A stretch of DNA of 64,000 bases from Rosistilla ulvae (GTDB taxonomy: Bacteria > Planctomycetota > Planctomycetia > Pirellulales > Pirellulaceae), in the NCBI RefSeq assembly GCF_007741475.1, contig NZ_CP036261.1, positions 186,001 through 250,000 on the forward strand, in the 5' to 3' direction. The first letter of the stretch is position 1. Each line of letters starts with the position of its first letter. The notes beneath the pieces were generated by a model. That model ran no database searches. It had not been told where the DNA came from and worked only from the letters and a program-made list of their open reading frames with translations. Shown piece by piece: positions 1,144 through 36,849 of this stretch. A program made the position numbers and the translations under genes.

Positions 1144-3021
1144 ATGAAACACAGCTATGGATCGATTGCTGTGTTGCTGCTTGCCCCGCTGCTGTTCTGC
1201 GGCCAGGGATGTCGCTCCCAAGCAAAACTTCCCGGCATCCGTTCCAAGAAATTGACGGTTGCAACATCTCCGGCCACCGAGCCGACGTCGGCTGAATCTG
1301 CCATCGCCCTGGTGAACTATCAGGCGTCGAAAGAACTGAGCGATAGCGCGATCCAGGGCGCGGTCGAACTCACGCCGCCGAGCGTGGATGATTTTCAGCA
1401 GCTGCCGCAAGAAGACATCTCGCTCGACCACGCGGTCCAGCGAGCGCTTGCGAACAGCCAAGTGATCCAGGATCACGGTGGTCGCGTGCTGACCTATCCC
1501 GATGCGATTCGCACTACGCTCGATCCAGCCGTGATCGCAAGCGATCCCAATATTGGTATCGACGCGGCGCTATCGGCTTACGACACGCAGTTTGAAACCG
1601 CGCTGGTTTGGAACGGCGGGGGCAGTTCCGTCAACTCGGCATTCTCCAGCGGACAGTTCGGCGTCTTTTCGCAACCCGAGACGATGGCAAAAGTTGGCTG
1701 GGGACAGATGCTTCGCAGCGGAACCAAGGTGGCTGTCGGCGGCGTCGGCGGCTACGACAAACAACTGGCCGGAGGTCTTTATGCTGCGTATGGTGCCGAG
1801 GTGCGACACCCGTTGTTGCGTGGAGCCGGGACCGAATTCAACGACATCGCCGGCCCATTTGGTAAACCGGGCTTATATCGCGGCGTCTTGATCTCGAAAA
1901 TCGGCCAGCGCAAGGCGCAACTGGAAGTCGAGAAATCGGTAAGAGACCTCGTGCGCGACGTGAGCATCGTCTACTGGGAGCTGGCGTTTGCCTATGAAAA
2001 TCTCAGGGCCAAGCAGAAAGCACTGGACAACGCGCACAACTCCTGGCAGCGAGAGCAAGAGCGGGCCGCTGCGAATGTCAGCCCCGCAGACGTCGAAGCG
2101 ATCGCGCGGCAACAGTATTATTCCGCCGTTGCTGCAGTCCGCAACGCCATCGCCGGGACCGGGCATGGGCAGACCGGCGTCTATGCGATTGAACTGAAAC
2201 TGAGAACGCTGCTGGGCATGCCGGCTTGCGACGGCCGCTTGTTGCATCCGAGCGGAACTCCGCTCAAAGCAGCGATCCGATTCGATTGGCACGAGAGCAA
2301 CGCGTTGGCAACGACCGGGCGGCTTGAGCTGAGGATCCAGCAGTCGAATATCGACCGACGTATTTTGGAACGGAAAGCGGCCAAGAACCTTCGCCGTCCG
2401 CAGGTCGATATCGTTGGCCAATACCGTCGCCTGGCCGATGATCCAACCACCGACACCGCGCTCTTCAGCGAGGCGTTGCAGGGTTGGCAGATCGGGATCG
2501 ATTATCGCCGTTCGATTCAGAACAGCCGCGAAAACGCAGCGATCCGCAACGCCGAACTTCAGCTGAGCCGCGAGCACGCGCTCGCTGATGCACAGCGAGC
2601 GCAGATCTCATCGGAACTGCGAACCGCTTTCATCGAACTCGATCGCGCCCTGGGGACGATGCACTACATGGCGCTCAGCCACGATGCGGCAATGATCCGC
2701 TTGGACGCTCAAACCCAGCGGCACGCGGCCGGCGATGCTCAGGTTGAACATGTGCTGGAGGCGCAGATTCGCGCCACGCGAGCCGAAACGCAATATCAAC
2801 GAAGCGTCATCGATTACAACCTTGCATTTATCAAATTGCACTACGCTCGCGGAACGCTGCTGAAAACGATGGGCGTTGGTTTTGGAACGCCAGCAACGGA
2901 TGAATGTCGTTTTGCGTTAAACGCGCCTTCGGTGTTCGCCCAACCGCCATCGGGCGACGATTCCTCAACCAACACGCAACTGGCTCAACCTCCGGCCGCT
3001 GCGGGTCCAGCTGTTCGATAG
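1144..3021 (+). CDS. TolC-like outer membrane efflux protein
   Basis: A 625-residue protein read from ATG 1144; an in-frame TTG at 1138 is the alternative start. The N-terminus is a hydrophobic export signal ending in a Cys-containing segment (LLFCGQGC), possibly a lipoprotein signal although the lipobox is poor. The body has the long helical repeats with Gln, Ala and Arg-rich heptads of the outer-membrane efflux (OEP) family, including 'VRDLVRDVSIVYWELAFAYE' and a C-terminal second repeat near residues 480-590. It is longer than Escherichia coli TolC (~490 residues). It would form the outer-membrane exit duct. It converges without any gap on a MacB-type gene, and together with the adaptor at 5125-6390 gives a complete tripartite pump. 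Confidence 0.85.
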   Translation: MKHSYGSIAVLLLAPLLFCGQGCRSQAKLPGIRSKKLTVATSPATEPTSAESAIALVNYQASKELSDSAIQGAVELTPPSVDDFQQLPQEDISLDHAVQRALANSQVIQDHGGRVLTYPDAIRTTLDPAVIASDPNIGIDAALSAYDTQFETALVWNGGGSSVNSAFSSGQFGVFSQPETMAKVGWGQMLRSGTKVAVGGVGGYDKQLAGGLYAAYGAEVRHPLLRGAGTEFNDIAGPFGKPGLYRGVLISKIGQRKAQLEVEKSVRDLVRDVSIVYWELAFAYENLRAKQKALDNAHNSWQREQERAAANVSPADVEAIARQQYYSAVAAVRNAIAGTGHGQTGVYAIELKLRTLLGMPACDGRLLHPSGTPLKAAIRFDWHESNALATTGRLELRIQQSNIDRRILERKAAKNLRRPQVDIVGQYRRLADDPTTDTALFSEALQGWQIGIDYRRSIQNSRENAAIRNAELQLSREHALADAQRAQISSELRTAFIELDRALGTMHYMALSHDAAMIRLDAQTQRHAAGDAQVEHVLEAQIRATRAETQYQRSVIDYNLAFIKLHYARGTLLKTMGVGFGTPATDECRFALNAPSVFAQPPSGDDSSTNTQLAQPPAAAGPAVR

Positions 3022-5073
3022 TTATTCAAATCGCAGGGCGTCGATCGGATCCAACAGCGAAGCTTTTCTCGCCGGATAATATCCAAACAGGATGCCGACA
3101 AAGGCAGCGACACCGACGGCGACGATCGCGGCGGTCAGCGACAACTCGTTGGGCCACGACATAAACCAACCGATCGCCATCGAACAAAGGTGTCCAAACA
3201 CGATTCCAACCAGACCACCGATCATACATAACACGGTCGCTTCGATCAGGAACTGGCGAAGGATTGCAGAGCGATCGGCGCCAACGGCCATCCGCAGCCC
3301 GATCTCTCGCGTTCGTTCGGTCACCGAAACCAACATGATGTTCATGATCCCAACGCCTCCCACCAGCAGCGAAACGCCGGCGATAATGAAGCCGAGTGCC
3401 GCCAGCCCGGAGACAACTTGATTTGTAACTTTCGAGACCTCGGTGAGATCTTGAATCTGAAAAACGTCTTCGCTGACGTCGTGCCGACGGGCAAGGAACT
3501 CTCGGATCTGTTGCCGCGCTTCGCCCACATGTTCCGGCGATATCGCCTGCACATAGATCTGACTCAGGTTTTCATTTCGCGTCGACTGGCGGCTCGATAC
3601 CAATTGCATTTTTGGCATTTGGTCTGCAAACGCAGCGAATCGCGGCGCGGCGTGCGAACTGGCATTTAAGCGATACTTAAAGGTTGTCCAGGGCGCGACG
3701 ATGATGTCGTCTTGGTCGTTGCCGATCACGTCACCACCTTTTGCCGACAAGACACCGACAACGCGCAGCGAGATCCCGTTGGCGCGAATCTCTTTCCCCA
3801 CGGGATAGTCGTCCAGGAAAAGATCGCTGGCAACCGTCTGCCCGATCACGCAAACCTTCGCCGCATCGAAGACGTTTTCTTCGGTGAACAATTGGCCCAT
3901 GTCGGTATCGTCCCAGTGGCGTCCCCGCAGGTAGTCGGCGGTGCTTCCAACCACAAACGTCGGGCGACTGCGGCGGTTGCCATACACAAGTTGCACCTGT
4001 CCATGCACGATCGGCGCCGTCAATTTCACCGCGGGGCATTGCTCCGCCAGCTGATCGGCATCCGTCGGCGTCAAAGGGATGTAGCGATTGCGTCTTCCAG
4101 ACGACGAGGTATGCGTGGACATGACGGTCAACATATCGGCTCCCATACTGGCAACCGTCTCTTTGATTGCTCGCGAGGAACCGCTGCTCAGTTCCATCAC
4201 ATTGACGACCGATGCCACGCCGATGATCACCCCCAGCATCGTCAGCGCCGTGCGCAGGGCGTTGCGACGAAGCGCCAAGATCGCGACCATGATTGCGTTG
4301 AGCGTAGCCGCCAGGTGCTGTCGATTTCTGCCACCGGAGAGCTTTGTTGGCGGATCGGGTAGGAGGTGCTCGACAGCCGAATAATCGGATTCATTCTGTT
4401 GATCCGCGGCGATCACACCGTCTTTCATATGAACGATACGGTCAGCGCTTTTGGCGACTTGCGAATCGTGCGTGACAACGACCAGCGTGATGCGATGTTC
4501 GAGATTCAGTTTACGAAACAATGCCAATATCTCGAGCTCGGTCTTCGAGTCGAGGTTGCCGGTCGGTTCGTCGGCGAGCAACAATCGCGGACGGTTGATC
4601 AAAGCCCGAGCAATGGCGACGCGCTGCCGTTCGCCACCGGAAAGTTGGTTGGGCGTATGGTCTAAACGCCCGGCAAGTCCCACCGTCTCTAGCAGTTGTT
4701 TGGCGTACTGAACCTTCTCGGCTTGCGACCGATCGTCGCTGGCGTAGAGCGTTGGCAGCAGCACGTTGTCCAGCGCCGAGGTCCGCGGCAGCAGGTTGAA
4801 ATTCTGGAATACAAATCCAACGTGGCGATTGCGAAAGATAGCCAGCTCGCCGGCCGACAATTCCGACACGTCGATGTCGGCGAACCGATACAGCCCACGG
4901 GTCAACCGGTCCAGGCTACCTAACAGGTTCATCAGCGTGGTCTTGCCGGAACCGGAGGTGCCCATCAGCGCGACGTATTCGCCGGCGGCAATGTTCAGCG
5001 TGATCCCTTTCAGGACGGGCAGGTCGGAATTGCCAACCCGGTAGGTCTTTTCGACGTTGCCCAGTTCAATCAA
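3022..5073 (-). CDS. MacB-type ABC transporter (ATPase fused to permease)
   Basis: This 683-residue protein starts at TTG 5073, the only start after an upstream in-frame stop, with an AGCAGGGA ribosome site. Residues 1-230 are an ATPase domain with Walker A GTSGSGKTT (38-46), the signature LSGGERQR and Walker B LLLADEPTGNLD. A linker leads to a membrane segment near residue 270, a periplasmic MacB-PCD-like domain, and a C-terminal FtsX-type permease of three helices containing the 'MLVSVTERTREIGLRMAVGA' motif. MacB powers export of periplasmic substrates through MacA and TolC. The stop codon abuts the stop of the TolC-like gene. It is the last gene of a leftward operon with the SyrD-type exporter and the adaptor. 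Confidence 0.93.
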   Translation of the reverse strand: MIELGNVEKTYRVGNSDLPVLKGITLNIAAGEYVALMGTSGSGKTTLMNLLGSLDRLTRGLYRFADIDVSELSAGELAIFRNRHVGFVFQNFNLLPRTSALDNVLLPTLYASDDRSQAEKVQYAKQLLETVGLAGRLDHTPNQLSGGERQRVAIARALINRPRLLLADEPTGNLDSKTELEILALFRKLNLEHRITLVVVTHDSQVAKSADRIVHMKDGVIAADQQNESDYSAVEHLLPDPPTKLSGGRNRQHLAATLNAIMVAILALRRNALRTALTMLGVIIGVASVVNVMELSSGSSRAIKETVASMGADMLTVMSTHTSSSGRRNRYIPLTPTDADQLAEQCPAVKLTAPIVHGQVQLVYGNRRSRPTFVVGSTADYLRGRHWDDTDMGQLFTEENVFDAAKVCVIGQTVASDLFLDDYPVGKEIRANGISLRVVGVLSAKGGDVIGNDQDDIIVAPWTTFKYRLNASSHAAPRFAAFADQMPKMQLVSSRQSTRNENLSQIYVQAISPEHVGEARQQIREFLARRHDVSEDVFQIQDLTEVSKVTNQVVSGLAALGFIIAGVSLLVGGVGIMNIMLVSVTERTREIGLRMAVGADRSAILRQFLIEATVLCMIGGLVGIVFGHLCSMAIGWFMSWPNELSLTAAIVAVGVAAFVGILFGYYPARKASLLDPIDALRFE

Positions 5074-5124
5074 TCTTCTGATCCCTGCTTAGATCGCTGC
5101 TCAAATGAAATCGCGAAACGCGGC

Positions 5125-6390
5125 TTATCGAATAGTCTTAGCGGTCGGAATGATCCGCGCAAGGGTCGTGCGGTCGACGGTTCCAACCACGATCGGCAAT
5201 GCTTCTGCAAAGCCATCCCCTTGGACCTCGGTCTGCACCCCATCGTCCACTCCGACGCGGACCTTCAGTGGGCGGACCCGTCCGTCTCCGGCAGCGACCC
5301 AAACGCAAGCCTGTTCGCCTTCGCTGGGGCCTCGTGCATTGTCTTGCTGTTGAGGACGATCGACCAGCAGATCTCCGCTTTCGAGTTGTTTGGAGTCGGG
5401 CCACCAACGGAGCGCTCCATTGGGGACCAACCAAGCGTGGTCTCGCCGCAAGACTTCAAACTCCACATCGGCGGTCATGTGTGGGAACAGTTCGATGTCG
5501 GTCGGGTCGATGCCGATGACCACATCGTAGGTAACAAAGTTTCCCTGTCGGCGGGCGTTGAACAGAATCTCCTCGACGCGGCCCGTCATCGTGTCGTTTC
5601 GATGGGCATCGACGGTGAAGGTCGCCGGTTGCCCAAGCTTCACTTTGCCGATGTCGCTTTCGCTGACCGAAGCCCGGATCCGCATGTGGTCTAAATCTTT
5701 CGACAGCAAAAACAGACCGGGATGCCCTGCATGAACGTGCTGGCCCAGGTTCGCCCGACGGTCAATCACGATCCCATCGATCGGCGACCGGACCGTTGTC
5801 TGCTCCACATGGATCTCGGCATGGCGGACTTCGGTCTCCGCCTGCTTTAACCTCGCCTGTCCAACCGCCAACTGGGCGGCTGCCATCTCGTGCGCAGTCT
5901 GGATCTCATCGAAAGCGCTCTGCGTATTGGTAGCCCGCAATTGCGTCGCCCGCTGCAGGTTTCGGCTGGCCTGGGCAAGTTGTGCCTCTAGACGCCCGAT
6001 GTCAGCTTGCGCCAAACCATACGCAGCTTGTGCCTTTTGCAGCCCCATCTCGAATTGTTGCGGATCGATCTCAAACAGGACCGTCCCTTTCGAGACACGA
6101 GCCCCGACGCCAATCGATTTCTGTTTGTCGTCGGGATCGACGCCAAAGCGTACGATCTTGCCGGCCACCTCGGGCCCTACTTGTACCACTTCATCCGGCT
6201 CGATCGTGCCGGTGGTACCAATCGTGATCACGAGGTCGCGTCGCTGGATATCGACGGTTCTTAGTTCGGGCAGCGCATTGCTAACGCTTCGCACATAGAA
6301 GAATCCTGCGACAGCAAGCATGCTGAAAAGCATGCCCCCACCGAGAACCAGACGTCTCACCCACGAGCGTTTAGGTTTCTTGTTCGTCAT
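5125..6390 (-). CDS. MacA/HlyD-type periplasmic adaptor subunit
   Basis: A 421-residue membrane-fusion protein starting at ATG 6390. It has a basic N-terminus, one membrane anchor (about residues 14-32), a lipoyl-like half motif near residues 55-80, a coiled-coil hairpin (about 105-200, rich in Ala, Gln and Glu), the second lipoyl half with 'TTVRSPIDGIVIDRRANLGQ', and a beta-barrel region. This is the RND/MacA adaptor layout. Its start overlaps the stop of the upstream SyrD-type gene by four bases (ATGA), and it lies 51 bp before the MacB gene, so the three genes are probably cotranscribed and translationally coupled. The partner duct is most likely the adjacent TolC-like protein. Confidence 0.9.
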   Translation of the reverse strand: MTNKKPKRSWVRRLVLGGGMLFSMLAVAGFFYVRSVSNALPELRTVDIQRRDLVITIGTTGTIEPDEVVQVGPEVAGKIVRFGVDPDDKQKSIGVGARVSKGTVLFEIDPQQFEMGLQKAQAAYGLAQADIGRLEAQLAQASRNLQRATQLRATNTQSAFDEIQTAHEMAAAQLAVGQARLKQAETEVRHAEIHVEQTTVRSPIDGIVIDRRANLGQHVHAGHPGLFLLSKDLDHMRIRASVSESDIGKVKLGQPATFTVDAHRNDTMTGRVEEILFNARRQGNFVTYDVVIGIDPTDIELFPHMTADVEFEVLRRDHAWLVPNGALRWWPDSKQLESGDLLVDRPQQQDNARGPSEGEQACVWVAAGDGRVRPLKVRVGVDDGVQTEVQGDGFAEALPIVVGTVDRTTLARIIPTAKTIR

Positions 6391-8009
6391 GCTGCGATCC
6401 TTTGCCGTCGACTGGAAACCATCTTCCCATCTACCAACTCAACGACGCGATCGGCGGCGAAGAAGTAGCGGTCATCATGGGTGATCGCGACGACCGATCG
6501 ACCGTTGCGAGTCAATTCAGGCACGATGTGTCGATAGAAAATTTCTTTAAACCCGGGGTCTTGTTCAGCCGCCCATTCGTCAAAGACAAACACGGGGCGT
6601 TGGTCCAAACAGGCGACCAGCAGGGCGAGTCGCTTATGCTGCCCACGCGAGAGCTTGCCAAGCCGGAAGTGCCCGGTTTCGAAATCAACTTTGTCTTCGA
6701 TGCCCAAAATGCTGGCCCAACGCTTCAACTGCATCGGATTGGCATCGATTCCCAGCAGTCGGTCGAACAGGTGCCCCTCGACGAAGACTGTCGTAAACAT
6801 CTGCCGGTAATCACCCAATGCCGCCTGATCGACGACTTGTTTGTTCAGCAGCAATTCGCCCTGATCGGGCGTGTACAAACCGGTCAGCAATTTCGCCAGC
6901 GTCGTCTTCCCGCTACCGTTGCCACCGGCAATAAACAGTACCTCGCCGGGCATCACCAAGAGATCGATGGGGCCCAGATGGAAGCTCTCTTGGTCGGAGT
7001 GCGGAGACCGGTAGGCGTAAGAGACGTTGCGGAGCGAGATCGAGCGAAACTCGGGAATCTGCGTTCCGCAAGCGATCGCTTTGGACGGATCGATCATCAA
7101 CCCGAGCGCGTTGATTTTATTGAGCGAGATGTTGGCGTTGTTCAGCGCCGGCAACCAGCCAAGGATGCTGTCCAGAGGACTGGTCAGATACAGGATCGTC
7201 AGCGTGTATCCCATCAGGGTTTCGGATGTGACCGGCCAGAACCGCGGCCAGACAAAGATCAACAGTCCGATACCGATGAAACGCGATAGACGTCCCCAGG
7301 TGTGTGCGGCACCGAGAATATCGGTCCCTTTGATCAAACGTTCCCGCATCGCGGTGTCGGCCGGCAGCAGCACGTCGTACATGAATTCAACGCAGCGACG
7401 ATTGTTCCCTTTCAGCTCTTTGATCCCAAACACCATCGCCTGCAACTGCTTCCTGACTTCGTCGCGATCCTCGCGCGCTTGCCGCAGGTGGTAGTTGGCC
7501 CAGTGCAATCCGCCCAGATAGCTGGCGATGCCTAGCGACGCCATGATCACCGAGCCGATCGCCAGCGGTAGCGACAGACTGGCCAAGTAGACCAGGCCGC
7601 TGATCAGCACCATCGCATTGGCGCATACGGTTGGGAATTGCGAGAGCGCGTTGGTGATCGCACCGACGTCTCCACCCAACGTGCCCAGCAGGCGATGGGG
7701 GCCACAGGCTTCCAATTCTGGCAGCGGTGCGGCAGCGATGCGATTGCATAATTCAAACTGCAGTCGGGCCGCGGTCGACTGGGAAAGGCGGGTCAAAATG
7801 CACTTGGAGACGACCTGCAGAACCAACACCGCCAGGCAAGCGATGGCGAACAAAGTCGCCAGGCGATTGGATGCCGCCGCTTGCTGCGTGAACGATTGAT
7901 GGATCAACGTGATCAATCCAAGCATCGCCAATCCACTGGCTCCACCAAAGACAATCGATGCCAGGCTCGCTCTCCACGAGGAACGCAACATGAGTAGAAG
8001 GAGGCTCAC
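6387..8009 (-). CDS. SyrD/PvdE-type cyclic peptide ABC exporter
   Basis: A 540-residue half-transporter read from GTG 8009; the N-terminal 'LLLMLRSSW' fits the family and the next ATG (7991) would remove it. Six membrane helices occupy residues 1-310, followed by an ATPase domain with Walker A GGNGSGKTT, the altered signature LSRGQHKRL and Walker B 'RPVFVFDEWAAEQDP'. The LSRGQ signature and DEWAAEQDP box are typical of the cyclic-peptide/siderophore exporter family (SyrD, PvdE, PvdE-like), which moves nonribosomal products across the inner membrane. The location beside a MacAB-TolC set and in a PKS/NRPS island supports that role. Substrate unknown. Confidence 0.88.
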   Translation of the reverse strand: MSLLLLMLRSSWRASLASIVFGGASGLAMLGLITLIHQSFTQQAAASNRLATLFAIACLAVLVLQVVSKCILTRLSQSTAARLQFELCNRIAAAPLPELEACGPHRLLGTLGGDVGAITNALSQFPTVCANAMVLISGLVYLASLSLPLAIGSVIMASLGIASYLGGLHWANYHLRQAREDRDEVRKQLQAMVFGIKELKGNNRRCVEFMYDVLLPADTAMRERLIKGTDILGAAHTWGRLSRFIGIGLLIFVWPRFWPVTSETLMGYTLTILYLTSPLDSILGWLPALNNANISLNKINALGLMIDPSKAIACGTQIPEFRSISLRNVSYAYRSPHSDQESFHLGPIDLLVMPGEVLFIAGGNGSGKTTLAKLLTGLYTPDQGELLLNKQVVDQAALGDYRQMFTTVFVEGHLFDRLLGIDANPMQLKRWASILGIEDKVDFETGHFRLGKLSRGQHKRLALLVACLDQRPVFVFDEWAAEQDPGFKEIFYRHIVPELTRNGRSVVAITHDDRYFFAADRVVELVDGKMVSSRRQRIAA

Positions 8010-8186
8010 CGGATATTTTGTCCCGACAGGTACTGAACGATTTCAACGAATGAAAGTTGCCTGATAACAAAACCCCATCGGATTCACCAACAGCATTTGC
8101 TGTGATAGCATGCTGCAGATTCACGCCGAAGCGACATCGATCGCTTCACTTGCCTTCGTCGCTGTCATCGATCAGGTGCTCCCCCA
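8010..8186. promoter_or_regulatory. Divergent intergenic region between export operon and glycosyltransferase run
   Basis: These 177 bases separate the leftward exporter operon from the rightward glycosyltransferase genes and must carry promoters in both directions. No confident sigma-70 pair was found by eye. The relatively AT-rich stretch around 8060-8110 is the most likely place. A short inverted sequence (CAGCATTTGCTGTGATAGCATGCTG) spans about 8091-8115. Confidence 0.35.
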
Positions 8187-9338
8187 TTGAAGTTCGCGTT
8201 TTATTCCACGATGACAGGCATGCCGTGGGGCGGCAGCGAAGTTCTTTGGTCGCGAGTCGCGCACCGAATGCGGGCCGACGCACACCAAGTTTGCGTTAGT
8301 TTTCGCCGCTGGGATCCCGAGGCCAAGGCGCTCGAATCGCTTCGTCGAGCAGGAGCGAGCGTGAGCACGCGGCCCGTGCCGCATCCGCCATCGTGGTTCA
8401 ACAGCCTCAATCCCGCGCGGTGGCCCAAGACCGATGCCCAGCATATCCAGCGGTGGTTGGCCAAAGAGCAGCCCGATCTGGCCCTGGTTACCCTCGGCTA
8501 TCATTTAAATACAGTCTCCCCGGCAGCGGAGCTGATGCGTCGGCAAATTCCCTACGCGATCAATGTCCAATGCGCCAGCCCCGACTATCTCGATTCGTAT
8601 TTCCTGGACGCCTTCCGAGCCGCGTATGCCGGTGCGGCCAGAGTCTATTTCGTTTCCCAGGAGAATCTTGAGCGTGTTGAGACGATGTTGGCGATGCGGA
8701 TCGAAACGGCAAAGATCATCGACAATCCGTTTAATGTTTCCTGGGATGCCCAACCGGCCTGGCCAACCGATCGCGACGGTTTTCGTTTGGCCTGTGTCGG
8801 GCGATTGCACTTTCCCTCCAAGGGCCAAGACCTGTTGATCGACGTTCTGCGGCAAGACAAATGGCGACAGCGGAATCTGTCGCTACATCTGTACGGCGAA
8901 TCGCAGGGCTTTCTTCGGCAAACCGAAGACCTCATCGCGCGGCATGGATTGCAGGATCAGATTCATTACGAAGGCTTCTCCGAACAGATTGAAAATTTGT
9001 GGGCGAATCACCACGGTCTGGTTCTCCCCTCCCGTTTTGAAGGCGCCGCGTTGGCAGTCGTCGAAGCCTTGTTGTGCAATCGCGTTTGCGTCACGACAGC
9101 TGTCGGCCGCAATCGAGAATTGATCCGCGATGGCGAGACGGGGTTCATCGCACCGGCTGCGACAGCCGAACTGATCGACCACGCACTCGAAGCGGCTTGG
9201 CAAAAAAGAGATCGCTGGCAAGAGATCGGCCAATTGGCGGGACAACACATTCGGCAGCGGTATCACGAGGACCCCGTTGCGGTTCTCTACAGCGATTTGA
9301 TGGCATTGGCTGCCGAACAGGGAGTCGGAAGTTCATGA
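8187..9338 (+). CDS. Glycosyltransferase family 4 (GT-B)
   Basis: A 383-residue protein whose N-terminus (MKFAFYSTMTGMPWGGSEVLW) is the classic GT4 donor-loop start and requires a TTG start at 8187. The C-terminal half has the nucleotide-sugar motif 'SRFEGAALAVVEAL', the EX7E pattern of retaining GT4 enzymes, and 'IRDGETGFIAP'. It would transfer a sugar from a nucleotide-diphosphate donor on the cytoplasmic side of the membrane. It is the first gene of a rightward series, and its stop overlaps the next gene's ATG by four bases (ATGA). Donor and acceptor cannot be told from sequence. Confidence 0.9.
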   Translation: MKFAFYSTMTGMPWGGSEVLWSRVAHRMRADAHQVCVSFRRWDPEAKALESLRRAGASVSTRPVPHPPSWFNSLNPARWPKTDAQHIQRWLAKEQPDLALVTLGYHLNTVSPAAELMRRQIPYAINVQCASPDYLDSYFLDAFRAAYAGAARVYFVSQENLERVETMLAMRIETAKIIDNPFNVSWDAQPAWPTDRDGFRLACVGRLHFPSKGQDLLIDVLRQDKWRQRNLSLHLYGESQGFLRQTEDLIARHGLQDQIHYEGFSEQIENLWANHHGLVLPSRFEGAALAVVEALLCNRVCVTTAVGRNRELIRDGETGFIAPAATAELIDHALEAAWQKRDRWQEIGQLAGQHIRQRYHEDPVAVLYSDLMALAAEQGVGSS

Positions 9339-10228: not shown

Positions 10229-10235
10229 AAAAAAC

Positions 10236-11090: not shown

Positions 11091-11138
11091 CGATGTTCTG
11101 ACAATTCGGTTGGAAGCAATGGCTATGATGATCGCTCA

Positions 11139-12407: not shown

Positions 12408-12510
12408 ACCCTTGCGAAACATCGGGGATAGTAGGTGCCGGTGCGATCGATTTCTGCAGCGGCAGAATCGCAACGACAATCGAAGTGGTGGGCGCAAGGA
12501 TGGGCGAGCG

Positions 12511-14873: not shown

Positions 14874-14878
14874 AGCCA

Positions 14879-28895: not shown

Positions 28896-28945
28896 CCGCG
28901 CGGGGCTTGTGGACCGTGGACTTGAGCAGGCTGCGATGCGAGTGT

Positions 28946-29161
28946 CTACACGGTTGGATGTTTTTCGTTCCAACGCTTCATCGCTGGCGTGATCGTTCTC
29001 ATAAAGACCCAAGCACCACGCGTCTTAGAGAGGCAACGGATGAGTGTTTCGGGACGAATCTCCCCCGAATCGATCCGGTGCAGAAATTCTGGTTCCCGGA
29101 TCGGGCCAACGCGTTTCGAACCCAACCAGCCACGTTTCATGTAATACCAGTTCACTGACAT
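28946..29161 (-). CDS. Small GYF_2/DUF4339-like protein
   Basis: A 71-residue product from ATG 29161. 'WYYMKRGW', 'RVGPIREPEFLHRIDSGEIRPETLI' and a Trp near the end fit the short GYF_2 (DUF4339) domain (WYY...GPV...L...G.I...T.V...W) that planctomycetes use in many membrane-linked proteins. Here it stands alone with no membrane segment. The spacing of Trp, Gly-Pro and Gly-Glu-Ile is convincing enough to call it a gene, though it has no obvious partner. It is convergent with the GT2, leaving a 50-bp gap. Confidence 0.6.
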   Translation of the reverse strand: MSVNWYYMKRGWLGSKRVGPIREPEFLHRIDSGEIRPETLIRCLSKTRGAWVFMRTITPAMKRWNEKHPTV

Positions 29162-29750
29162 ACTCGGCGTCCCTTCGTTTATCGAGAATTACGATACCGA
29201 AGCCCCGCGGCTACTGCCCGACCGGTTATAGCCAGTTTGGATGGGGCATTGAAAAACTATCCCGATGATTGCCGATATTACCCAGGCACTTGCGGACAAG
29301 TGCATTGCGTGGCGGTGTTCAGACGTTCCCCAGCAAATATCTCACCTGGGCGTTAAGCTGCGTTGCAAATACCAGCACGAAGCGCAAGCGAGTGGTTCCT
29401 CGCGACATGCAAATACGGGCGCGACGCTGTAGCGAGTGAATCTTTGGCGACTGTAAATACAATCACGAATCGTCGGCGGCGAGTGGTATGAATCACTCGC
29501 TTGCGCTTCGTGCTAGTATGCGTTGATCGCGCTACGCTTTTTCGGAGACTTCGCAGGCGGTGGAGCACGCTGTGGGACTGCTCGACTCGTGATACATCGG
29601 TGTTGCCGACGCGGTGTCGTAAGGCTCCTCGCAAATACCAGCACGAAGCGCAAGCGAGTGAATCCTCGTGATTTTCGCATACGGGCGCGACGCTGTCGCG
29701 AGTGGTATGAATCACTCGCTTGCGCTTCGTGCTAGTATGCGTTGATCGCG
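29162..29750. other. Gap filled mainly by dispersed inverted repeats
   Basis: No gene is credible in these 589 bases. A 153-codon antisense frame exists here, but it is a by-product of the repeat (it reads THTSTKRKRV twice). The segment 29162-29360 shows nothing recognisable. From 29365 on, it is built from repeated arms and two near-identical ~138-bp direct copies, described separately. Confidence 0.7.
29365..29660. repeat. Forward arms of the dispersed inverted repeat (29365-29394 and 29631-29660)
   Basis: The two 30-base stretches starting GCAAATACCAGCACGAAGCG are identical and complement the right-hand arms at 29494-29519 and 29713-29738. Each arm pair can form a long hairpin, spaced by about 100 and 50 bases respectively. 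Both are followed by the related phrase 'TACGGGCGCGACGCTGT'. This is the same family as the copy at 898-952. Confidence 0.75.
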
Positions 29751-29837
29751 CTACGCTTTTTCGGAGACTTCGCAGGCGGTGGAGCACGCTGTGGGACTGC
29801 TCGACTCGTGGCACATCGGCGTTGCCGACGCGGTGTC
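29481..29837. repeat. Two direct copies of ~138 bp, period 219, one covering a gene end
   Basis: 29481-29618 and 29700-29837 are almost identical (differences at a few bases near the 3' end). The second copy includes the last ~29 codons and TAG stop of the flavoprotein gene at 29751-31469; the first is an isolated duplicate downstream. Together with the A arms, this gives a tandem A-B-A-B arrangement. The C-terminal tail of the flavoprotein (Ser/Thr/Ala/Cys-rich) is therefore encoded by repeat DNA, which suggests the element inserted at, and replaced, the original gene end. Confidence 0.8.
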
Positions 29838-31469
29838 GACGGCTAGCTGCCGTTCGAAGAAACAGACCAACTTTTGGAAATGGGTCTGCTGGTACTGAGT
29901 CGGATCCTCTTGGCCGACGAAATCGATCGCGCGAATCAGCTTGCGTTTGCCGCAGTGTTCGTTCAGCCGCCAGTCGTTTTCAAGCGATTCGCTGATGTGA
30001 TGCTCGGCGATCAATGCGTTGCCGCGCATGTGGCGGATCCGCGGATGTAGGTAGGCGTCGTTGTAAGCCTTCTCCGGATGCGGCTCGCGTTCGAGGCTGA
30101 AGACGTTCCCTTCAAAGTCGCCGTATTCCATCGTGATGATGTAATAGTCTTGCTGTTGGCCAAATTCGCTGTCCAAGATGTAATCGACCGCCAGTCCCTC
30201 GTGATACCGCGCCTCGCCCGTCTCGCGGTCGACCACCATGCAATCGCCCAAGAAGCCCGGTTGGTGCATCAGCCCGGCGTCGCTGCTGACGCGGTCGATG
30301 ATCTTGTCGGCGAGCGGTTCGGCAGCCAACGGCAAGCGATGCGACGGATAGGGCGTCGATTCGTGTCGCTGTGCGATGATGTTGTACAGCGATTTAATGT
30401 TGAACCGAAAACCGTGCAGCACGTTCGACATCGTCTTCTTCAGATCGCGGATCTGCATGATCGTGCCGGCGTAATACAGGTTGGGAATGTTTGTCGATTC
30501 CCAGCCGCTTGTCATCGCGGGCAAGCGGTCTTCGCAAGCCATATCGGGGCGGCAGTTCTCGCCAAAGAACTTCGGGTCCCAGCGGAATCCGGTGCAACAG
30601 ATCACGCGATCGTAAGCCATTTCGGCCCGCTGCCCTTCGGCATGCGTAAACGTGATATTGACGCGGTATTCCCCGTCGACCTTTTCGATCTTGTCGATGT
30701 TGGCGTCGAGGACGGAGTTCTGTCCCTTCAGAATGTAGGTGTCCAGGAACTCGTTATTGACAGCTCGCAGGTGGCCGAAGAAGTGCGACTGCCAAGCCAT
30801 CTTGATCGACCCTGGGCTGGCCAGGTGCGTGACGCGGGTGGCGTTGAGCAGATGGTTCGCCGTCTCAAACGCCGAGTTCCCCTTGCCGATGATCAACAGC
30901 CGCTGGTCGGCGTAATCCTTGGGATCGATCGACATGTCGAAGTAGTTTTCGGTCAGTTCGATGCCGGGGATTTCGGGAACGTACGGCTTGGAAACTCCCG
31001 TCGCGACGGTGAACGTTCGCGAACGGTAGAGGTTGCCGTCGGCATCGCGAACGATAAACCTGCCCGACCCGTCCTCGGCACGGCTGACGTCGCTGATCCA
31101 GGTGTTGTATTGGATCTTCAGATCGAAGCGGGCTGCGTAATCACGCAGGTATTGCGCGTACAGTTGTGCGTTTGGGTAATAGGCGTCGGTGTAGTTCTGG
31201 AAGTTGAAACCATCGTCATCGCACAACAGCGAGTTCCAGTCGTATCGCAACTGGGCCCGTCGCTCGGTATAGCCGTTGTAGACTTTATTGATCGAGATCA
31301 GCTTGCCGTGTCGCGGGAACCGTTCGTAAAACGCTCCGGCGCGATCGTTTGCTTCGAGGACCAGATAATCGCGTTGCTCGCGGTCCATGAAATAGGCAAG
31401 CTGCAGCCCTGCAGGGCCGGCGCCGAGGATCAAGTGGTCGATGTCGCGAATGGTTTCTGTCGTGGTCAT
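29751..31469 (-). CDS. FOXRED2-like FAD-dependent oxidoreductase
   Basis: A 572-residue flavoprotein from ATG 31469. It has an N-terminal FAD motif (LILGAGPAGLQ, residues ~13-23), 'FPRHGKLISINK' as in FOXRED2-type proteins, and a second dinucleotide motif 'LLIIGKGNSAFETANHL' for NAD(P)H. The fold is that of flavin monooxygenase-like or pyridine-nucleotide oxidoreductases. Eukaryotic FOXRED2 is an ER flavoprotein; bacterial relatives are poorly studied. The gene follows the NRPS by 16 bp on the same strand, so an oxidative tailoring or release step on the NRPS product is a reasonable guess. The last ~29 residues come from a repeat and are probably not part of the enzyme core. Confidence 0.82.
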   Translation of the reverse strand: MTTTETIRDIDHLILGAGPAGLQLAYFMDREQRDYLVLEANDRAGAFYERFPRHGKLISINKVYNGYTERRAQLRYDWNSLLCDDDGFNFQNYTDAYYPNAQLYAQYLRDYAARFDLKIQYNTWISDVSRAEDGSGRFIVRDADGNLYRSRTFTVATGVSKPYVPEIPGIELTENYFDMSIDPKDYADQRLLIIGKGNSAFETANHLLNATRVTHLASPGSIKMAWQSHFFGHLRAVNNEFLDTYILKGQNSVLDANIDKIEKVDGEYRVNITFTHAEGQRAEMAYDRVICCTGFRWDPKFFGENCRPDMACEDRLPAMTSGWESTNIPNLYYAGTIMQIRDLKKTMSNVLHGFRFNIKSLYNIIAQRHESTPYPSHRLPLAAEPLADKIIDRVSSDAGLMHQPGFLGDCMVVDRETGEARYHEGLAVDYILDSEFGQQQDYYIITMEYGDFEGNVFSLEREPHPEKAYNDAYLHPRIRHMRGNALIAEHHISESLENDWRLNEHCGKRKLIRAIDFVGQEDPTQYQQTHFQKLVCFFERQLAVDTASATPMCHESSSPTACSTACEVSEKA

Positions 31470-31485
31470 GTTTCGGGCTCGTTCG

Positions 31486-34400
31486 CTATTGGGAATCGCT
31501 CAAGTTGTCGTTGCGGTCGCGACCTGCGTCGTCGTCACCGCTGGCATCCAAGCTGCCCAGTCGTCGTTGCACCTCCTCGTCCGAGAGGCTCTCCAGTTCT
31601 TCAAGCATGCGGATTTCATCGATATCGGCCTGCTGCAGCTGATCCTGCACGATCGATTCGGCGATCGCTGCAATCGTTGGCGAATCGTACAGCAGCCGCA
31701 GCGGAATCTTCGCTTCGAATTGGTCGCGGAGCCGCGATAACAGCTGTGCCGCTTGCAATGAGTTGCCGCCAAGCTCGAAGAAACTTACGTCGCGGCCGAT
31801 CGGCCCGGTCTGCAAAACTTCCTGCCACAGATTGGCAACCGCATGTTCCAGCGGCGTCTGCGGCAGCGCAATCGCTGCGACCGCCACAGGCTCCGTGTTC
31901 GGCAGCGGCAACGCTTTGTAGTCGGTCTTGCCGGCGGGAGTTTGCGGGATCGCTGGCAGCCGACAAATCGTCGACGGCAGCATGTATTGCGGCAGCCGAC
32001 CGCCGATCGATTGGCGAATCGCATCGACATCGACGTCGGTTTGACAGAAGGCGACGATCTGCTGTTGAGCTGCTTCGCCGCGGACGACGACCGCCGCCCG
32101 ATGAACTCCCGCGACCGATTCGATCGCCGATTCGATCTCATCCAGCTCGATCCGGAAGCCGCGGAGTTTGATCTGTCGGTCGTTGCGAGCCAAGAAGTGC
32201 AGCTGGCCTCGGCTGTCGATTCGCACTTGGTCGCCGGTCCGGTAGACGCGCGGCGAGGGCTGGTCGGTTGTGAGGGAGTCGTCGGCGGAGAACGACGTCG
32301 TCGGCAGCGTGACAAAACGCTGGCGAGTCAGTTCGGGGCGATTCCAGTAGCCGCGAGCCACTCCGGATCCGCCGATGCACAACTCTCCCGATACGCCCCG
32401 CGGCACGGGCCGCAATTCGGGATCGAGCAGATGGATCGTGGTGTTGTCGATCGCTTGGCCGATGCAAACGCGTTCGCCTTCGACTCTCGAGATCGTCGAC
32501 CAGACGGTCGTCTCGGTCGGACCATAGACATTCCACAGCTCGCATCCGCTGGCCAACAACTGGCTCGCGAGATCGGCTGGCAACGGTTCGCCACCGCTGA
32601 ACACCCGCAACTGTTGGTTGGGCGTCCAACCAGTTGTCATTAAGACACGCAGCGTCGAGGGCGTCGTCTGTAGGTGAGTGATCGGTTCGGTTTCGAGGAT
32701 CGATTTCAGCGACTCTGGTTCGGTCGCCGCTCGGTCTGCGGTCAACCGCACGTGGCCGCCGGTCCACAGCGGCAGGAACAGCTCCAACACCGAGATGTCA
32801 AACGAAGTCGTGGTTAAAGCCAGGATCGAATCGTCGGCGGTGAAGCCGGGCCGCGCGGCGAAGCTGTTCAACAGATTGGCGACGCTGTGATGTTCGATCG
32901 CAACGCCTTTGGGTTTGCCCGTCGAACCGGATGTATAGATCACGTAAGCGAGATCCGTCGGCAGAGGTCCGTCCAGCGACAGATCTTGCGCATCCAATCG
33001 ACTCAGTTTGGCGAACTGCCAGACGGGAACGCCGGCCTGCATCGATGTTGTATCGGAGAGGATCGCGGCGAGCCCGGCGTCTTCGATCATCATCGCCAGT
33101 CGCTCTTGCGGCAGCGCCGGATCCAACGGCACATAAGCCGCTCCCGCTTTCCAAACCGCCAGCATCCCGACAAGCATTTCGATCGATCGCTGCATGTCGA
33201 CGCCAACCAGATTCCCGGCCGCAATGCCTCGCTGCCGCAGAACCTTGGCCAAGGCTGTCGATTGCGCGTCGAGATCGCTGTAGCTGAGTCCGCGATGGTC
33301 GTCGGTGATCGCAATCTTATCGGCCGCGCGGGCGGCAACATCACCCAGCCGTTGGCAGAGCGTTGCCGAATCACATTCCGCGGCGGTGGCGAGATTGAGT
33401 TGATCGAAAGCTTGGCGATCAGCGGGCGATGCACTGGGCAAGTCGATCAGCGCACAAGCGGGATTGGCGGCGATCGCTTGCAGCGTCGCTTCCATCAGAT
33501 CCAGAACGCCTTCCGCTGTCGCGCGATCGATGTGATCGTTGTGCACCACCGTGATCTCGGTCGTCGACGACGGATGGATGACCATCGACAGGTCGTATGC
33601 CGTGACGGCGGCGTAGTCGGGTTGGACCGCTTGCAGCGTGCCGCCAGCGATCTCGATCGGGGCCTCGCTCGAGTGCAGCGGTTGTTGGAACAGGAACATG
33701 TTTTGCGCCAACGGCATCGCGTCCAGCGACCGCTGATGATCGATCGATTCGACCACGCGTTGGAACGGCACGTTGGCATGTTCCAAATCGTGCAGCAGAT
33801 GATCTCGTGTCGAGCGCAGCAATCGCAGGAACGAAGCTTGGCGATCGATTTGGCCGCGGAAGATGATCGGGTTCATGAAGCATCCGACCGTTGCGGCCAG
33901 TTGCGACGAGGGGCGATCGGTCGTCGGCATCGCGATCGGCAGATCGGTCGATCCGGTGTATCGCGAGAGGACATGTTGGTAGGCGGCCAGGTAGACCATC
34001 GACGCGGTGGTGCCGTGGTCGCGAGCGACGCTTTCGAGATCGCGAGCGAGCGAACCATCCAAGGCTCGCGTGATCGCTGGCGATTCGTCGGGGGCGGCCA
34101 GATCGGATTCCGCGACCGGCAGTTGTAGACGCTCGGGAATTCCGGCAAGTCGCGTTTGCCAATAGCCGACCTTCTGATCGATCTGTGCGATGTGCGATTC
34201 GGATTGATCCCAACACGCGAAATCGAGATAGGTCAGCTGTTCTGGATCGACCGGAGCCGCGGCGATCAGATCGCGCAACAGGATCTCGACCGAGCTGGCA
34301 TCACAAACGATGTGATGCAACACGATCTCCAGCTGATATTGCGACGGCCCGGTTTCGATCAGTGCCGCTCGCATCAGCGGAGCGGTTTGCAGATCAAACG

Positions 34401-36849
34401 GCTGGCGAACGAAATCGGCTCGGACCTCGGCGAGGTTTTCGGGCGACGCGGTCAGTCGCCCAAGACTCAGCGGCGCTTCATCGAGCACGCGTTGCATCGG
34501 CACATCGCCCGACATCTCGATAATCGTCCGCAGCGCCGGATGACGCTGGCAGATCGCGGCGAGCGAGGCTTCCAATCGATCGGCGTCGACGTCGCCGGTG
34601 ATTTGCAGCGAGACGGGGACGTGCAAAAACGCGTTGGTCTGTTCCAGTTCCTGCAGCAGCCAAAAGCGTTGCTGGGCGGCCGACAGCGGCGCCACCTTGG
34701 CCTCGCTGCTTCGTCGCGTGACCTCGTCTTTAAGACGTCCTTCCCCCGCATCGATCGCGGCGGCAAGCCGACCGAGTGTGCTGTGACTGAAGAGGGTGGA
34801 GAGTCCGATCTCGACACCAAACTGTTCGCCGATCCGTGTAACCAACTGGCCGACCAGCAGCGACTGGCCGCCGAGATCGAAGAAGTCGTGGTGTCGGCTA
34901 ATCTCGTCGACATGCAGCAGTTCGTTCCAGATCGATGCCAGCGCGACTTCGGTCTCCGTTTCGGGAGCTTCGAATTCAGCAGCCGCCTGGGTTGCGGCGA
35001 ACCCGCCGGCTTGCCAGCGTCGGACTTCGGAAAGCTCTCCGTCGAGGAACATCTGCCGGCAATCGCGACGGCGAAGTTTGCCACTGGATGTTTTGGGCAA
35101 CGATCCCGACTTCACCAACACGATCGCATGCGGCGTGACCTGATGACTTTCGGCGATCGCCTCCAAGGCTTCGGGCAGCAGGTTGTCGATGGCAAATTTG
35201 CCCGGCCGCCAAACCTCTTGCAGCACGACCAACTGCTCCTGCCCATCGTGGTCGATCGAAAACGCCGTCCCCGAATCGGGCTTAAAGGCTTCGCTGATCG
35301 ATTGCACTGTCGCTTCGATGTCGTGCGGGTAATAATTGCGTCCGCCGATGATGATCAATTCTTTGATCCGCCCGGTGACGATCAGTTGCCCATCGATAAT
35401 GCAGCCCAAATCGCCAGTCCGCAGGTAGCCCGATTCGCCGGTGTCGGCGATCGTCGCGTGAAAGGTGGCTTGCGTTAGTTCGGGGTGGTTCCAGTAGCCG
35501 GCGGCGATCGAACCGCTGCGCGCCCAGATCTCGGCGACCTGGCCTGGCCCCGCCAGACGACAGGTTTGCGGGTCGACGATTTCGACTTCCATTCCCAAAA
35601 CCGCTTCGCCGGAACTGACCAACGTCTGCGTGCCAGGCCCCGGTGCGTCAACCTGTTCGATGCGGCCAGCGGCCAGCGCGCGGCTGTCGACTTCGTACAT
35701 GATCGGCATCTTACCCAGCGGGCTGCCGGTCATGATGACTGTCGTTTCAGCCATCCCCATCGCGGGCGAGAAGGCGGATGGATCGAAGCCATACGGTTGG
35801 AACTTTTCAGTGAATCGTTTTGCGGTCGCAGCGCGAACCGGTTCGGCGCCCGAAACCGCAACTTTCCAGCTGCTCAGGTCGAGCCCCTCGCACTGCTCCG
35901 GCTTGATCTTGCGAACGCACAGCTCGTATCCAAAGTTGGGACTGCCGTTGCTGGTCCCTTGGTAGCGGTCGATCGCTTGCAACCAGTGCAGCGGATTGGA
36001 GATGAAGTTCTTGGGCGTCAGGATGACCGTCTCGACACCTTCATAGGCAGGCAACAGGATCCCGCCGATCAACCCCATATCGTGATAGGGAGGCAGCCAG
36101 TGCAGCGCTTTGGCGCCGGGAAAGTGGTAGTGCCGGACGAGGGCTCGCAGGTTGTGCATCAAGTTGGCGTGCGTCAGTGCGACGCCGCGAGGGATGCCCG
36201 TCGAACCGGAAGTGTATTGCAGCAGGGCGAGTTCGTCGGGGGCCGGTGCCGAGGGACGCCAATCGTTTGCGGCCGACAGCGACAACTCATCGACAGCGAT
36301 CGCCGCGGCGTTGTCGAGATTCCAGAGTGGACTGAGTTGCGGACCAATGATCTCACGGCTGGAGAGCATCACTTTGGCGTCGGCGTTTTGGATGATCGCT
36401 TGCAGACGGCCCAGAGTGTGTTGCAGTCGCAGCATACTGGGCGGATAGACGGGGACCGCAACCGCACCGGCATACATGCACCCGAACAGCGAACTGACGT
36501 AGTCCATGCCGGGATCGAGAACGATCAGCACGCGCTGGCCCGCGCCACCAAGGGCTTGGATGCGAGCGGCGATCGCGCGGGCGCGATGGTCGAGATCGCG
36601 ATAGTTTAATTGCGTGTCGTTGAAGTCATGATCCAAGACCATCGTGAACGCGGTGCGATCGGCGTGTTCGGTTTGCCCGTACCAACGCAAGCGATGGACC
36701 AGCGTCGGCAGCTCTTTCGGCGCGGAGGTAGCGACAGGTGCCGAGAAGCCCTGGTGATGCGGATTGTGGTCGATGCTGTTTTCCGTCGCGTCCAACAATT
36801 TTGTACCTATCCATTCTCGCGAGAGCTTCACGTCACGGAGCGACACCAT
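31486..36849 (-). CDS. FAAL-NRPS: FAAL-PCP-C-A(Gly-like)-PCP
   Basis: Read from ATG 36849 (1787 residues); an upstream GTG at 36873 is possible. Domains: fatty-acyl-AMP ligase about 45-630 ('LLQYTSGSTGIPRG', 'SPNFGYELCVRKI', 'GRIKELIIIGGRNYYPHDIE', all FAAL marks); carrier PCP1 (GGQSL, Ser663); condensation domain ~710-1140 (HHIVCDA, His845/His846/Asp850, with Ala where Gly is usual); adenylation domain ~1180-1650; carrier PCP2 (GGNSLQ, Ser1697). The adenylation pocket read against GrsA gives D-I-L-Q-F-G-V-V-W-K, close to the glycine code DILQLG(L/M)(I/V)WK. No thioesterase or reductase follows; the acidic C-terminal tail (~50 residues) may be a docking segment. Expected intermediate: N-acylglycyl-S-carrier. 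Confidence 0.93.
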   Translation of the reverse strand: MVSLRDVKLSREWIGTKLLDATENSIDHNPHHQGFSAPVATSAPKELPTLVHRLRWYGQTEHADRTAFTMVLDHDFNDTQLNYRDLDHRARAIAARIQALGGAGQRVLIVLDPGMDYVSSLFGCMYAGAVAVPVYPPSMLRLQHTLGRLQAIIQNADAKVMLSSREIIGPQLSPLWNLDNAAAIAVDELSLSAANDWRPSAPAPDELALLQYTSGSTGIPRGVALTHANLMHNLRALVRHYHFPGAKALHWLPPYHDMGLIGGILLPAYEGVETVILTPKNFISNPLHWLQAIDRYQGTSNGSPNFGYELCVRKIKPEQCEGLDLSSWKVAVSGAEPVRAATAKRFTEKFQPYGFDPSAFSPAMGMAETTVIMTGSPLGKMPIMYEVDSRALAAGRIEQVDAPGPGTQTLVSSGEAVLGMEVEIVDPQTCRLAGPGQVAEIWARSGSIAAGYWNHPELTQATFHATIADTGESGYLRTGDLGCIIDGQLIVTGRIKELIIIGGRNYYPHDIEATVQSISEAFKPDSGTAFSIDHDGQEQLVVLQEVWRPGKFAIDNLLPEALEAIAESHQVTPHAIVLVKSGSLPKTSSGKLRRRDCRQMFLDGELSEVRRWQAGGFAATQAAAEFEAPETETEVALASIWNELLHVDEISRHHDFFDLGGQSLLVGQLVTRIGEQFGVEIGLSTLFSHSTLGRLAAAIDAGEGRLKDEVTRRSSEAKVAPLSAAQQRFWLLQELEQTNAFLHVPVSLQITGDVDADRLEASLAAICQRHPALRTIIEMSGDVPMQRVLDEAPLSLGRLTASPENLAEVRADFVRQPFDLQTAPLMRAALIETGPSQYQLEIVLHHIVCDASSVEILLRDLIAAAPVDPEQLTYLDFACWDQSESHIAQIDQKVGYWQTRLAGIPERLQLPVAESDLAAPDESPAITRALDGSLARDLESVARDHGTTASMVYLAAYQHVLSRYTGSTDLPIAMPTTDRPSSQLAATVGCFMNPIIFRGQIDRQASFLRLLRSTRDHLLHDLEHANVPFQRVVESIDHQRSLDAMPLAQNMFLFQQPLHSSEAPIEIAGGTLQAVQPDYAAVTAYDLSMVIHPSSTTEITVVHNDHIDRATAEGVLDLMEATLQAIAANPACALIDLPSASPADRQAFDQLNLATAAECDSATLCQRLGDVAARAADKIAITDDHRGLSYSDLDAQSTALAKVLRQRGIAAGNLVGVDMQRSIEMLVGMLAVWKAGAAYVPLDPALPQERLAMMIEDAGLAAILSDTTSMQAGVPVWQFAKLSRLDAQDLSLDGPLPTDLAYVIYTSGSTGKPKGVAIEHHSVANLLNSFAARPGFTADDSILALTTTSFDISVLELFLPLWTGGHVRLTADRAATEPESLKSILETEPITHLQTTPSTLRVLMTTGWTPNQQLRVFSGGEPLPADLASQLLASGCELWNVYGPTETTVWSTISRVEGERVCIGQAIDNTTIHLLDPELRPVPRGVSGELCIGGSGVARGYWNRPELTRQRFVTLPTTSFSADDSLTTDQPSPRVYRTGDQVRIDSRGQLHFLARNDRQIKLRGFRIELDEIESAIESVAGVHRAAVVVRGEAAQQQIVAFCQTDVDVDAIRQSIGGRLPQYMLPSTICRLPAIPQTPAGKTDYKALPLPNTEPVAVAAIALPQTPLEHAVANLWQEVLQTGPIGRDVSFFELGGNSLQAAQLLSRLRDQFEAKIPLRLLYDSPTIAAIAESIVQDQLQQADIDEIRMLEELESLSDEEVQRRLGSLDASGDDDAGRDRNDNLSDSQ

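Follow-up and report, generated by a model that had tools for sequence, protein, structure and literature searches.

Two adjoining, separable gene units of Rosistilla ulvae predicted to make an exported glycolipid and an acylated dipeptide

Mycobacterial loci for sulfolipids and phenolglycolipids (PGLs) keep FAAL, Pks, PapA, and MmpL genes together, and the sulfolipid locus adds Stf0. Pyoverdine is exported by a set made up of PvdE, PvdR, PvdT, and OpmQ, while in heterocyst glycolipid export TolC is the partner of DevBCA. The heterocyst glycolipid (hgl) system comprises Hgl polyketide synthase (PKS) genes, the ACP-thioester reductase HglB, the glycosyltransferase HglT, and the DevBCA exporter (PMC8064123, PMC11804610). 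Here, we analyzed a 64,000-base window, bases 186,001 to 250,000 of the single-contig genome of Rosistilla ulvae (7,475,804 bases; labeled G000), in which a large PKS lies among transferase and export genes and close to a nonribosomal peptide synthetase (NRPS). A first-pass annotation had read these genes as one island. Judged by gene content and synteny, they are two units side by side: unit A (1,138 to 28,895; 15 genes) and unit B (29,751 to 36,873). From left to right, unit A encodes TolC, a MacB-type ATP-binding cassette (ABC) protein, an adaptor, a PvdE-type ABC protein, GT4 and GT2 glycosyltransferases, a sulfotransferase, a second GT4 enzyme, a weakly GT-B-like protein, a GT8 enzyme, a protein of no family, a GT2/GT21-like enzyme, the PKS, a PapA-like acyltransferase, and a second GT2/GT21-like enzyme. 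After about 860 bases containing repeats come the flavoprotein and the FAAL-PCP-C-A-PCP synthetase of unit B. The reading we favor, and hold to be probable, is that unit A makes an exported, reductively released, glycosylated, acylated, and possibly sulfated fatty alcohol, and that unit B makes an independent N-acyl dipeptide.

We compared the two units across 149 genomes of the Pirellulaceae, counting unit A genes per locus by the best tblastn match per place (at least 150 bits). All 15 unit A genes were found in four other genomes: the congener G072, G013 (a different genus), Rhodopirellula rubra CECT 8075 (G150), and Aporhodopirellula aestuarii ICT_H3.1 (G149). Among these, only G072 has both units, with all 17 genes in the same order at 86 to 99% amino-acid identity; the NRPS and flavoprotein were not found in the stretches read of the other three (66.6 kb in G013, 50 kb in G150, and 55 kb in G149). 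In G006, the second congener, the NRPS (97% identity) and flavoprotein (99%) adjoin the flagellar genes as they do in the window; the 40 kb read contained none of the 15 unit A genes. Genome-wide, its best PapA match was 31% identical and its best PKS match was a paralogue, aligning in pieces at 46 to 59%. The co-occurrence proposed at first pass is therefore borne out for the set from PKS to exporters; the PKS next to an NRPS did not recur outside the congener.

The flavoprotein was found (E ≤ 1e-40) in 11 of the 149 genomes: the three congeners, five others that were read (G055, G091, G045, G140, and G008, from three other genera), and G063, G084, and G114, which were not read. In the five, it adjoins a FAAL-NRPS (40 to 47% identical) and a second synthetase, which in G055 has the Pfam domain order C-A-MT-PCP-TE. 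At the same threshold, it was not found genome-wide in G013, G111, G083, or G129. Since the units are separable, a place for the FAAL-NRPS and flavoprotein in the PKS pathway is not supported, and the lipopeptide half of the product envisaged at first pass becomes detached from it.

The absence of unit A from G006 is most likely due to loss. DNA alignment placed window positions −653 and 28,894 about 28 bp apart in G006. The left arm stops inside the frame of a GntR/FCD regulator (Pfam GntR and FCD), which is open in G000 and truncated and frame-broken in G006. The alignment thus points to a deletion of about 29.5 kb in G006 that most likely removed unit A together with the neighboring DUF1559 gene and a portion of the regulator. 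We also considered unit A as a recent insertion; the truncated regulator argues for deletion in G006. In G000, the regulator and the DUF1559 pseudopilin-like gene form one frame without a stop between them (L097 17,004 to 17,999, to window position 776).

Dispersed inverted repeats that resemble repetitive extragenic palindromes (REPs) and share an 18-base core lie to either side of unit A (window 932 to 949, 29,371 to 29,388, 29,500 to 29,517, 29,637 to 29,654, and 29,719 to 29,736). Further copies occur no more than about 400 bp from the deletion join in G006 and at 7,087,187 in G000, beside the second synthetase described below. The exact core occurs 53 times in G000, 52 in G006, once in G072, 50 times in G137 (another genus), and not at all in four other genomes. 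Genes of the Y1 transposase family were present in all four genomes searched.

Unit B has the FAAL, carrier, condensation (C), adenylation (A), and carrier (PCP) domains of a FAAL-NRPS lipopeptide synthetase. A second NRPS (NRPS2; C-A-MT-PCP-TE by Pfam, with a Thioesterase domain) lies in G000 at about C1:7,087,824 to 7,093,115. It is a 54% identical homologue of the second synthetase of those genomes and, if the contig is circular, lies about 600 kb from the window NRPS. In G000, G006, and G072 alike, NRPS2 homologues are unlinked to unit B. With a second NRPS alongside it in other genomes and unlinked here, unit B looks like a split two-module lipodipeptide pathway, and synteny elsewhere makes the unlinked NRPS2 the probable partner of the window NRPS. 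For the A domain of the latter, a script returned the code DILTVSVVWK, and our own reading gave Q at position four; this is near the glycine code, and we set it aside as too uncertain for use. From three NRPS2 and two NRPS1 sequences (G091 and G045), the script extracted no code, and its fourth letter for G140 and G008 is possibly off.

Pfam and NCBIfam scans of the window proteins recovered every gene class named at first pass, each in its place (Table 1), and the 17 genes recur in order in the congener. The flagellar export (FlhB, FliR, and FliP) and MotA/MotB genes to the right of unit B (39,031 to 47,148), which are kept in G006, were excluded from the cluster. No tRNA was found in the window, and GC content was 58.5% in a 142-kb sample of G000. 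Rosistilla genomes measure 7.25 to 7.51 Mb; strain EC9 has a GC content of 57.9% and an average nucleotide identity of 90.3% to CA51 (PMC8303584).

Table 1. Features of units A and B, with window coordinates and basis of assignment
Feature	Position	Strand	Basis
TolC-type outer-membrane factor, 627 aa	1138..3021	+	PF02321 9e-22; 61-65% identical in G013, G149, G150
MacB-type ABC exporter (ATPase + MacB_PCD + FtsX)	3022..5073	-	Pfam; best NCBIfam MacB, 460.9 bits, cut-off of 966 not reached
Periplasmic adaptor, HlyD/MacA-like	5125..6390	-	Pfam; TIGR01730 126.3 vs cut-off 94.9
PvdE/SyrD-type ABC transporter	6387..8009	-	TIGR01194; 74-79% identical in G013, G149, G150
GT4 glycosyltransferase	8187..9338	+	Pfam
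GT2 glycosyltransferase	9335..10228	+	PF00535 2e-24 on longer open reading frame (ORF); listed ORF start 9074, probable start near 9335
PAPS-type sulfotransferase	10236..11090	-	PF00685 4e-18; motifs KSGTNW, TRDGRD
GT4 glycosyltransferase	11139..12407	+	Pfam
Conserved protein, weakly GT-B-like	12496..13809	+	DUF6716 "putative glycosyltransferase" E 0.005; orthologue Epimerase_2 7e-4
GT8 glycosyltransferase	13800..14873	+	PF01501 2e-38
Conserved protein	14870..15793	+	No Pfam match; 62-64% identical in G013, G149, G150
GT2/GT21-like, HpnI-like glycosyltransferase	15867..17144	+	Pfam; HpnI 4e-24, under cut-off
Reducing PKS, 2,994 aa	17207..26191	+	Pfam KS, AT, DH, MT, ER, KR, ACP, NAD_binding_4 thioester reductase
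PapA/WS-DGAT/condensation-like acyltransferase	26188..27525	-	Pfam; HHACCDG
GT2/GT21-like, HpnI/ceramide-glucosyltransferase-like	27663..28895	+	HpnI 1e-25, under cut-off; PDB ceramide glucosyltransferase 5e-10
Unit A right edge and intergenic DNA containing REP-like inverted repeats	28894..29750	.	28,894 is the deletion join in G006
Flavoprotein, Pyr_redox_3/FMO-like	29751..31469	-	Pfam/NCBIfam; next to FAAL-NRPS in G006, G072, and five further genomes
FAAL-PCP-C-A-PCP synthetase, no release domain	31486..36873	-	Pfam

The domains and motifs of the unit A PKS are those of a reducing type I PKS with reductive release. All PKS catalytic motifs sought were found in the window copy, as were those sought in the NRPS, PapA, sulfotransferase, and ABC proteins. 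Among PDB sequences, the PKS was closest to mycocerosic acid synthase (MAS; 1,049 bits, where a DEBS construct scored 761 and LovB 639). Its acyltransferase (AT) domain carries the motifs GHSVG and YAFH and, by motif rules, looks malonyl-type. A malonyl-type AT together with a built-in C-methyltransferase (MT) points to methyl branches derived from S-adenosylmethionine, and the terminal NAD_binding_4 domain suggests that the chain is released by reduction. PKSs with long matches at 46 to 56% identity and varying neighbors occur in G111, G119, G140, G008, and G124. The relatives in G119 (L088-L089, 25,127 to 32,719) and G008 (L091) have frames of about 3,460 residues; that of G119 contains a condensation-like stretch between ACP and reductase, apparently without the HHxxxD motif. 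A second large PKS lies elsewhere in G000 (C1:1,397,796 to 1,404,395; a 3,100-residue frame), about 60% identical to the window PKS in the KS region, and is present in G006 and G072 as well.

Six unit A genes are clear glycosyltransferases by Pfam (GT4, GT2, GT4, GT8, and two GT2/GT21-like). The seven to eight counted at first pass thus hold as six, with up to two more among the weakly matching protein at 12,496 to 13,809 and the protein of no family at 14,870 to 15,793. The former has counterparts at 57 and 55% identity in the PapA loci L100 and L101. AlphaFold models of the two were poor (mean pLDDT of 33 and 43, respectively). We dismissed as chance the matches of the first to enterovirus VP4 chains (E of 0.018 to 0.96, about 59 residues) and of the second to regulatory protein CII (two matches, E of 0.3). 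The best relatives of the two GT2/GT21-like enzymes are HpnI and ceramide glucosyltransferase, both of which act on lipid hydroxyl acceptors; scores of 90.4 and 85.2 bits fall short of the HpnI equivalog cut-off of 310. The PapA-like enzyme has the catalytic HHxxxDG, and its HH.C.D motif was invariant across 12 aligned sequences. It scored under the cut-offs of PapA_C (23.6 versus 30), WS_DGAT_cat (15 versus 23.6), acyl_WS_DGAT (33.2 versus 310), and PapA5 (33.2 versus 396).

Among the export genes, the PvdE-type transporter exceeded the curated cut-off of the PvdE/SyrD cyclic-peptide exporter family TIGR01194 (392.2 versus 286.2 bits). The set stayed below those of the DevBCA exporter (DevA, 202 versus 295.8; DevB, 59.4 versus 129). 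Across the phylum, 3 of 392 genomes had a PvdE match at E ≤ 1e-80, G000 included, and the other two were 35% identical. G013, G072, G083, and G129 carry the gene yet went unmatched in this search, presumably because they were not drawn, which says that the gene is rare in the phylum rather than absent.

Gene content, motifs, synteny, and separability were read directly from the genomes; the chemistry, step order, and products they suggest are as follows. The MAS-like PKS would build a reduced acyl chain, with malonyl extender units and methyl branches set by the C-methyltransferase, and its terminal reductase would free the chain as an aldehyde or alcohol. The GT21/HpnI-like enzymes would place the first sugar on the lipid hydroxyl, and the other glycosyltransferases would lengthen the glycan. 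PapA would esterify the glycolipid, and the sulfotransferase may sulfate it. The PvdE-type transporter would flip the product over the inner membrane, with MacB, adaptor, and TolC exporting it. In unit B, FAAL would load a fatty acid, module 1 would add an amino acid, and the unlinked NRPS2 would add a second and release the product; the flavoprotein would oxidize an intermediate or the product. For unit A, the exported lipid proposed at first pass (glycosylated, acylated, and possibly sulfated) remains plausible, as the clustered and conserved gene set fits it.

Variant loci suggest which parts of unit A belong together. G129 and G083 lack the PKS and keep 7 of the 15 genes: those for PvdE, MacB, adaptor, TolC, PapA, and the two GT2/21-like enzymes. 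Each has a stand-alone protein aligning to the PKS reductase region at 27 to 28% identity, which in G129 is an NAD_binding_4 ("male sterility") acyl reductase by Pfam and is joined by a fatty acid desaturase. Reductive chain processing therefore appears to be the feature common to the variants. The G129 locus also encodes an NTP_transf_5 protein and a PqqD-like protein (L055, 12,920 to 14,596 and 16,277 to 16,714), which are unexplained in a glycolipid cluster. G140 has 7 of the 15 genes (exporters, two GT2/21-like, and PKS), and no PapA gene was found in the 33.7 kb read up to its contig end. We also surveyed the surroundings of PapA genes with 14 query sets, keeping 80 of 90 named loci with 10-kb flanks, many of them cut by contig ends. 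A reductase was found in 13 loci, a GT21-like gene in 10, and both in 9 (Fisher P = 3e-8, uncorrected for kinship, the loci being related and not independent); 20 control stretches of 20 kb gave no match to any query set. Locus L102 and one of the reductase queries derive from a single record, and in L100 and L101 the reductase match is the PKS domain. More tentatively, some Pirellulaceae may make a previously unseen class of exported surface lipid, a glycoside of a methyl-branched fatty alcohol that is sulfated, acylated, and glycosylated several times over, using a MAS-like PKS with built-in reductase and pyoverdine-type exporters. The lipid half may be swappable, with relatives retaining the genes for glycosylation, acylation, and export and having a stand-alone acyl reductase (in one case plus a desaturase) instead of the PKS.

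Several observations weigh against the fatty-alcohol reading. The predictions for AT, A domain, and branching depend on motif rules. The G013 PKS is without the MT region, and the MT motif sought was not found in G119 or G124, so methyl branching would not be universal. The dehydratase (DH) pattern missed G124 and G008 and the reductase pattern G150 and G124; the G150 alignment nevertheless extends through the reductase. Rosistilla-type loci differ from the others in the arrangement of their gene blocks: G013, G149, and G150 share one order, unlike that of the window, with the PvdE-adaptor-MacB block beyond the glycosyltransferase block and TolC beside the GT21-like gene, and in G013 the no-family gene at 14.9 kb is split into two ORFs. 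In the 50 kb read of G111, 7 of the 15 unit A genes were found, without sulfotransferase or exporters. Exporters were seldom near PapA in the survey (of 80 loci, pvdE in 1, mfp in 1, tolC in 2, and macB in 0), although its 10-kb flanks miss those of L100 and L101. PvdE-type exporters are best known for peptides, including acylated ones. Finally, G149 and G150 carry the flavoprotein and unit A on different contigs, and G140 has the flavoprotein on one contig with a 49% identical PKS, 115 kb apart; these three genomes hold both units or parts of them, which may cooperate at a distance.

We weighed three other explanations. Unit A could instead build a surface polysaccharide or glycoconjugate of holdfast or matrix type, exported and cell-bound, with the PKS lipid as membrane anchor. 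Six or more glycosyltransferases, whose relatives include exopolysaccharide-type GT4 and lipopolysaccharide-type GT8 families by NCBIfam, and a sulfotransferase would suit such a product. However, no Wzx/Wzy/Wza-type flippase, polymerase, ligase, or capsule-export family appeared among the Pfam-matched unit A genes (two genes being unmatched), MacB-TolC exporters normally carry small molecules, and the PKS-less variants keep PapA and reductase, which are typical of lipids. We regard this explanation as unlikely. Less likely still is a single lipopeptide-glycolipid pathway, as read at first pass, in which the FAAL-NRPS would take up the PKS product and the lipopeptide would leave through the PvdE/MacB exporters. 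The units do adjoin in G000 and G072, acylated peptides are known cargo of PvdE-type exporters, and G149 and G150 hold unit A plus the unit B flavoprotein. Yet G006 has unit B but neither unit A nor the exporters, G013 has a full unit A and no flavoprotein, and unit B adjoins a second NRPS instead in five other genomes; moreover, a PKS ending in a reductase would not release its product as an acid for FAAL. On this distribution of units among genomes, we rejected the exporters as lipopeptide partners. Equally improbable is a wax or polyester like those of mycobacteria, with PapA linking two acyl or alkyl chains and the sugars of secondary importance, for despite the MAS-like PKS, the PapA/WS-DGAT-like enzyme, and a reductase yielding an alcohol to esterify, the PapA_C, Condensation, and WS_DGAT matches lie under Pfam cut-offs, and six glycosyltransferase genes kept in five genomes are unlikely to be secondary.

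The fatty-alcohol glycolipid we favor would have no described planctomycete counterpart, in keeping with the first-pass statement: we found no product of such make-up and no description of the cluster in the literature searched, although most subscription papers fell outside its scope, so novelty is unproven. Nor did that literature, including PMC8303584, yield polar-lipid data. For R. ulvae EC9, four clusters of PKS/NRPS type are reported, and predicted clusters were less than 10% similar to known ones (PMC8303584). The locus has thus probably been detected by antiSMASH already, while going undescribed in the accessible part of that article. According to a 2025 review of planctomycete secondary metabolism, only one targeted study had set out from a predicted gene cluster, and its subject was a type III PKS (PMC12078418). 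Our analysis offers a delimited 15-gene target common to two named strains (R. rubra and A. aestuarii), a congener that is probably a natural deletion control (G006), and a testable rule, namely, that the acyl source is swapped and reductive release kept. It also corrects the cluster boundaries, since cluster mining based on adjacency alone would fuse two probably unrelated pathways.

Among described systems, mycobacterial lipid loci were the analogy drawn at first pass, and it holds in part. Unit A resembles the loci for phthiocerol dimycocerosate (PDIM), PGL, and sulfolipid-1 in having a MAS-like PKS core beside a PapA-like acyltransferase. Unlike MAS, a chain of 2,124 aa, its PKS has a built-in MT and terminal reductase. 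Unlike the mycobacterial loci, it has no FAAL, which belongs to the separable unit B; no MmpL match was found by Pfam among the cluster proteins of the window; and Sulfotransfer_1 and Sulfotransfer_3 were the sole Pfam matches of the sulfotransferase at E ≤ 0.001. With pyoverdine-type export, unit A shares the same four component types, including a transporter above the PvdE-family cut-off. In contrast to pyoverdine, the set is clustered with a PKS and glycosyltransferases or with a stand-alone reductase, and in the loci read it was not found with an NRPS outside this genus. The predicted product of unit B would be like the planctomycete N-acyl tyrosines (stieleriacines) in being an acylated amino acid compound from the same phylum, and unlike them in its FAAL-NRPS. 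The hgl system matches unit A in its PKS chain, thioester-reductase domain, glycosylation of the aglycone, and dedicated ABC export. Unit A differs from it in joining reductase and PKS in one polypeptide with a C-methyltransferase, in adding two HpnI-like and several other glycosyltransferases, PapA, a sulfotransferase, and the PvdE transporter, and in having an ABC protein and adaptor under the DevA and DevB cut-offs. By this comparison, heterocyst-glycolipid logic appears to fit unit A better than the sulfolipid/PGL analogy does.

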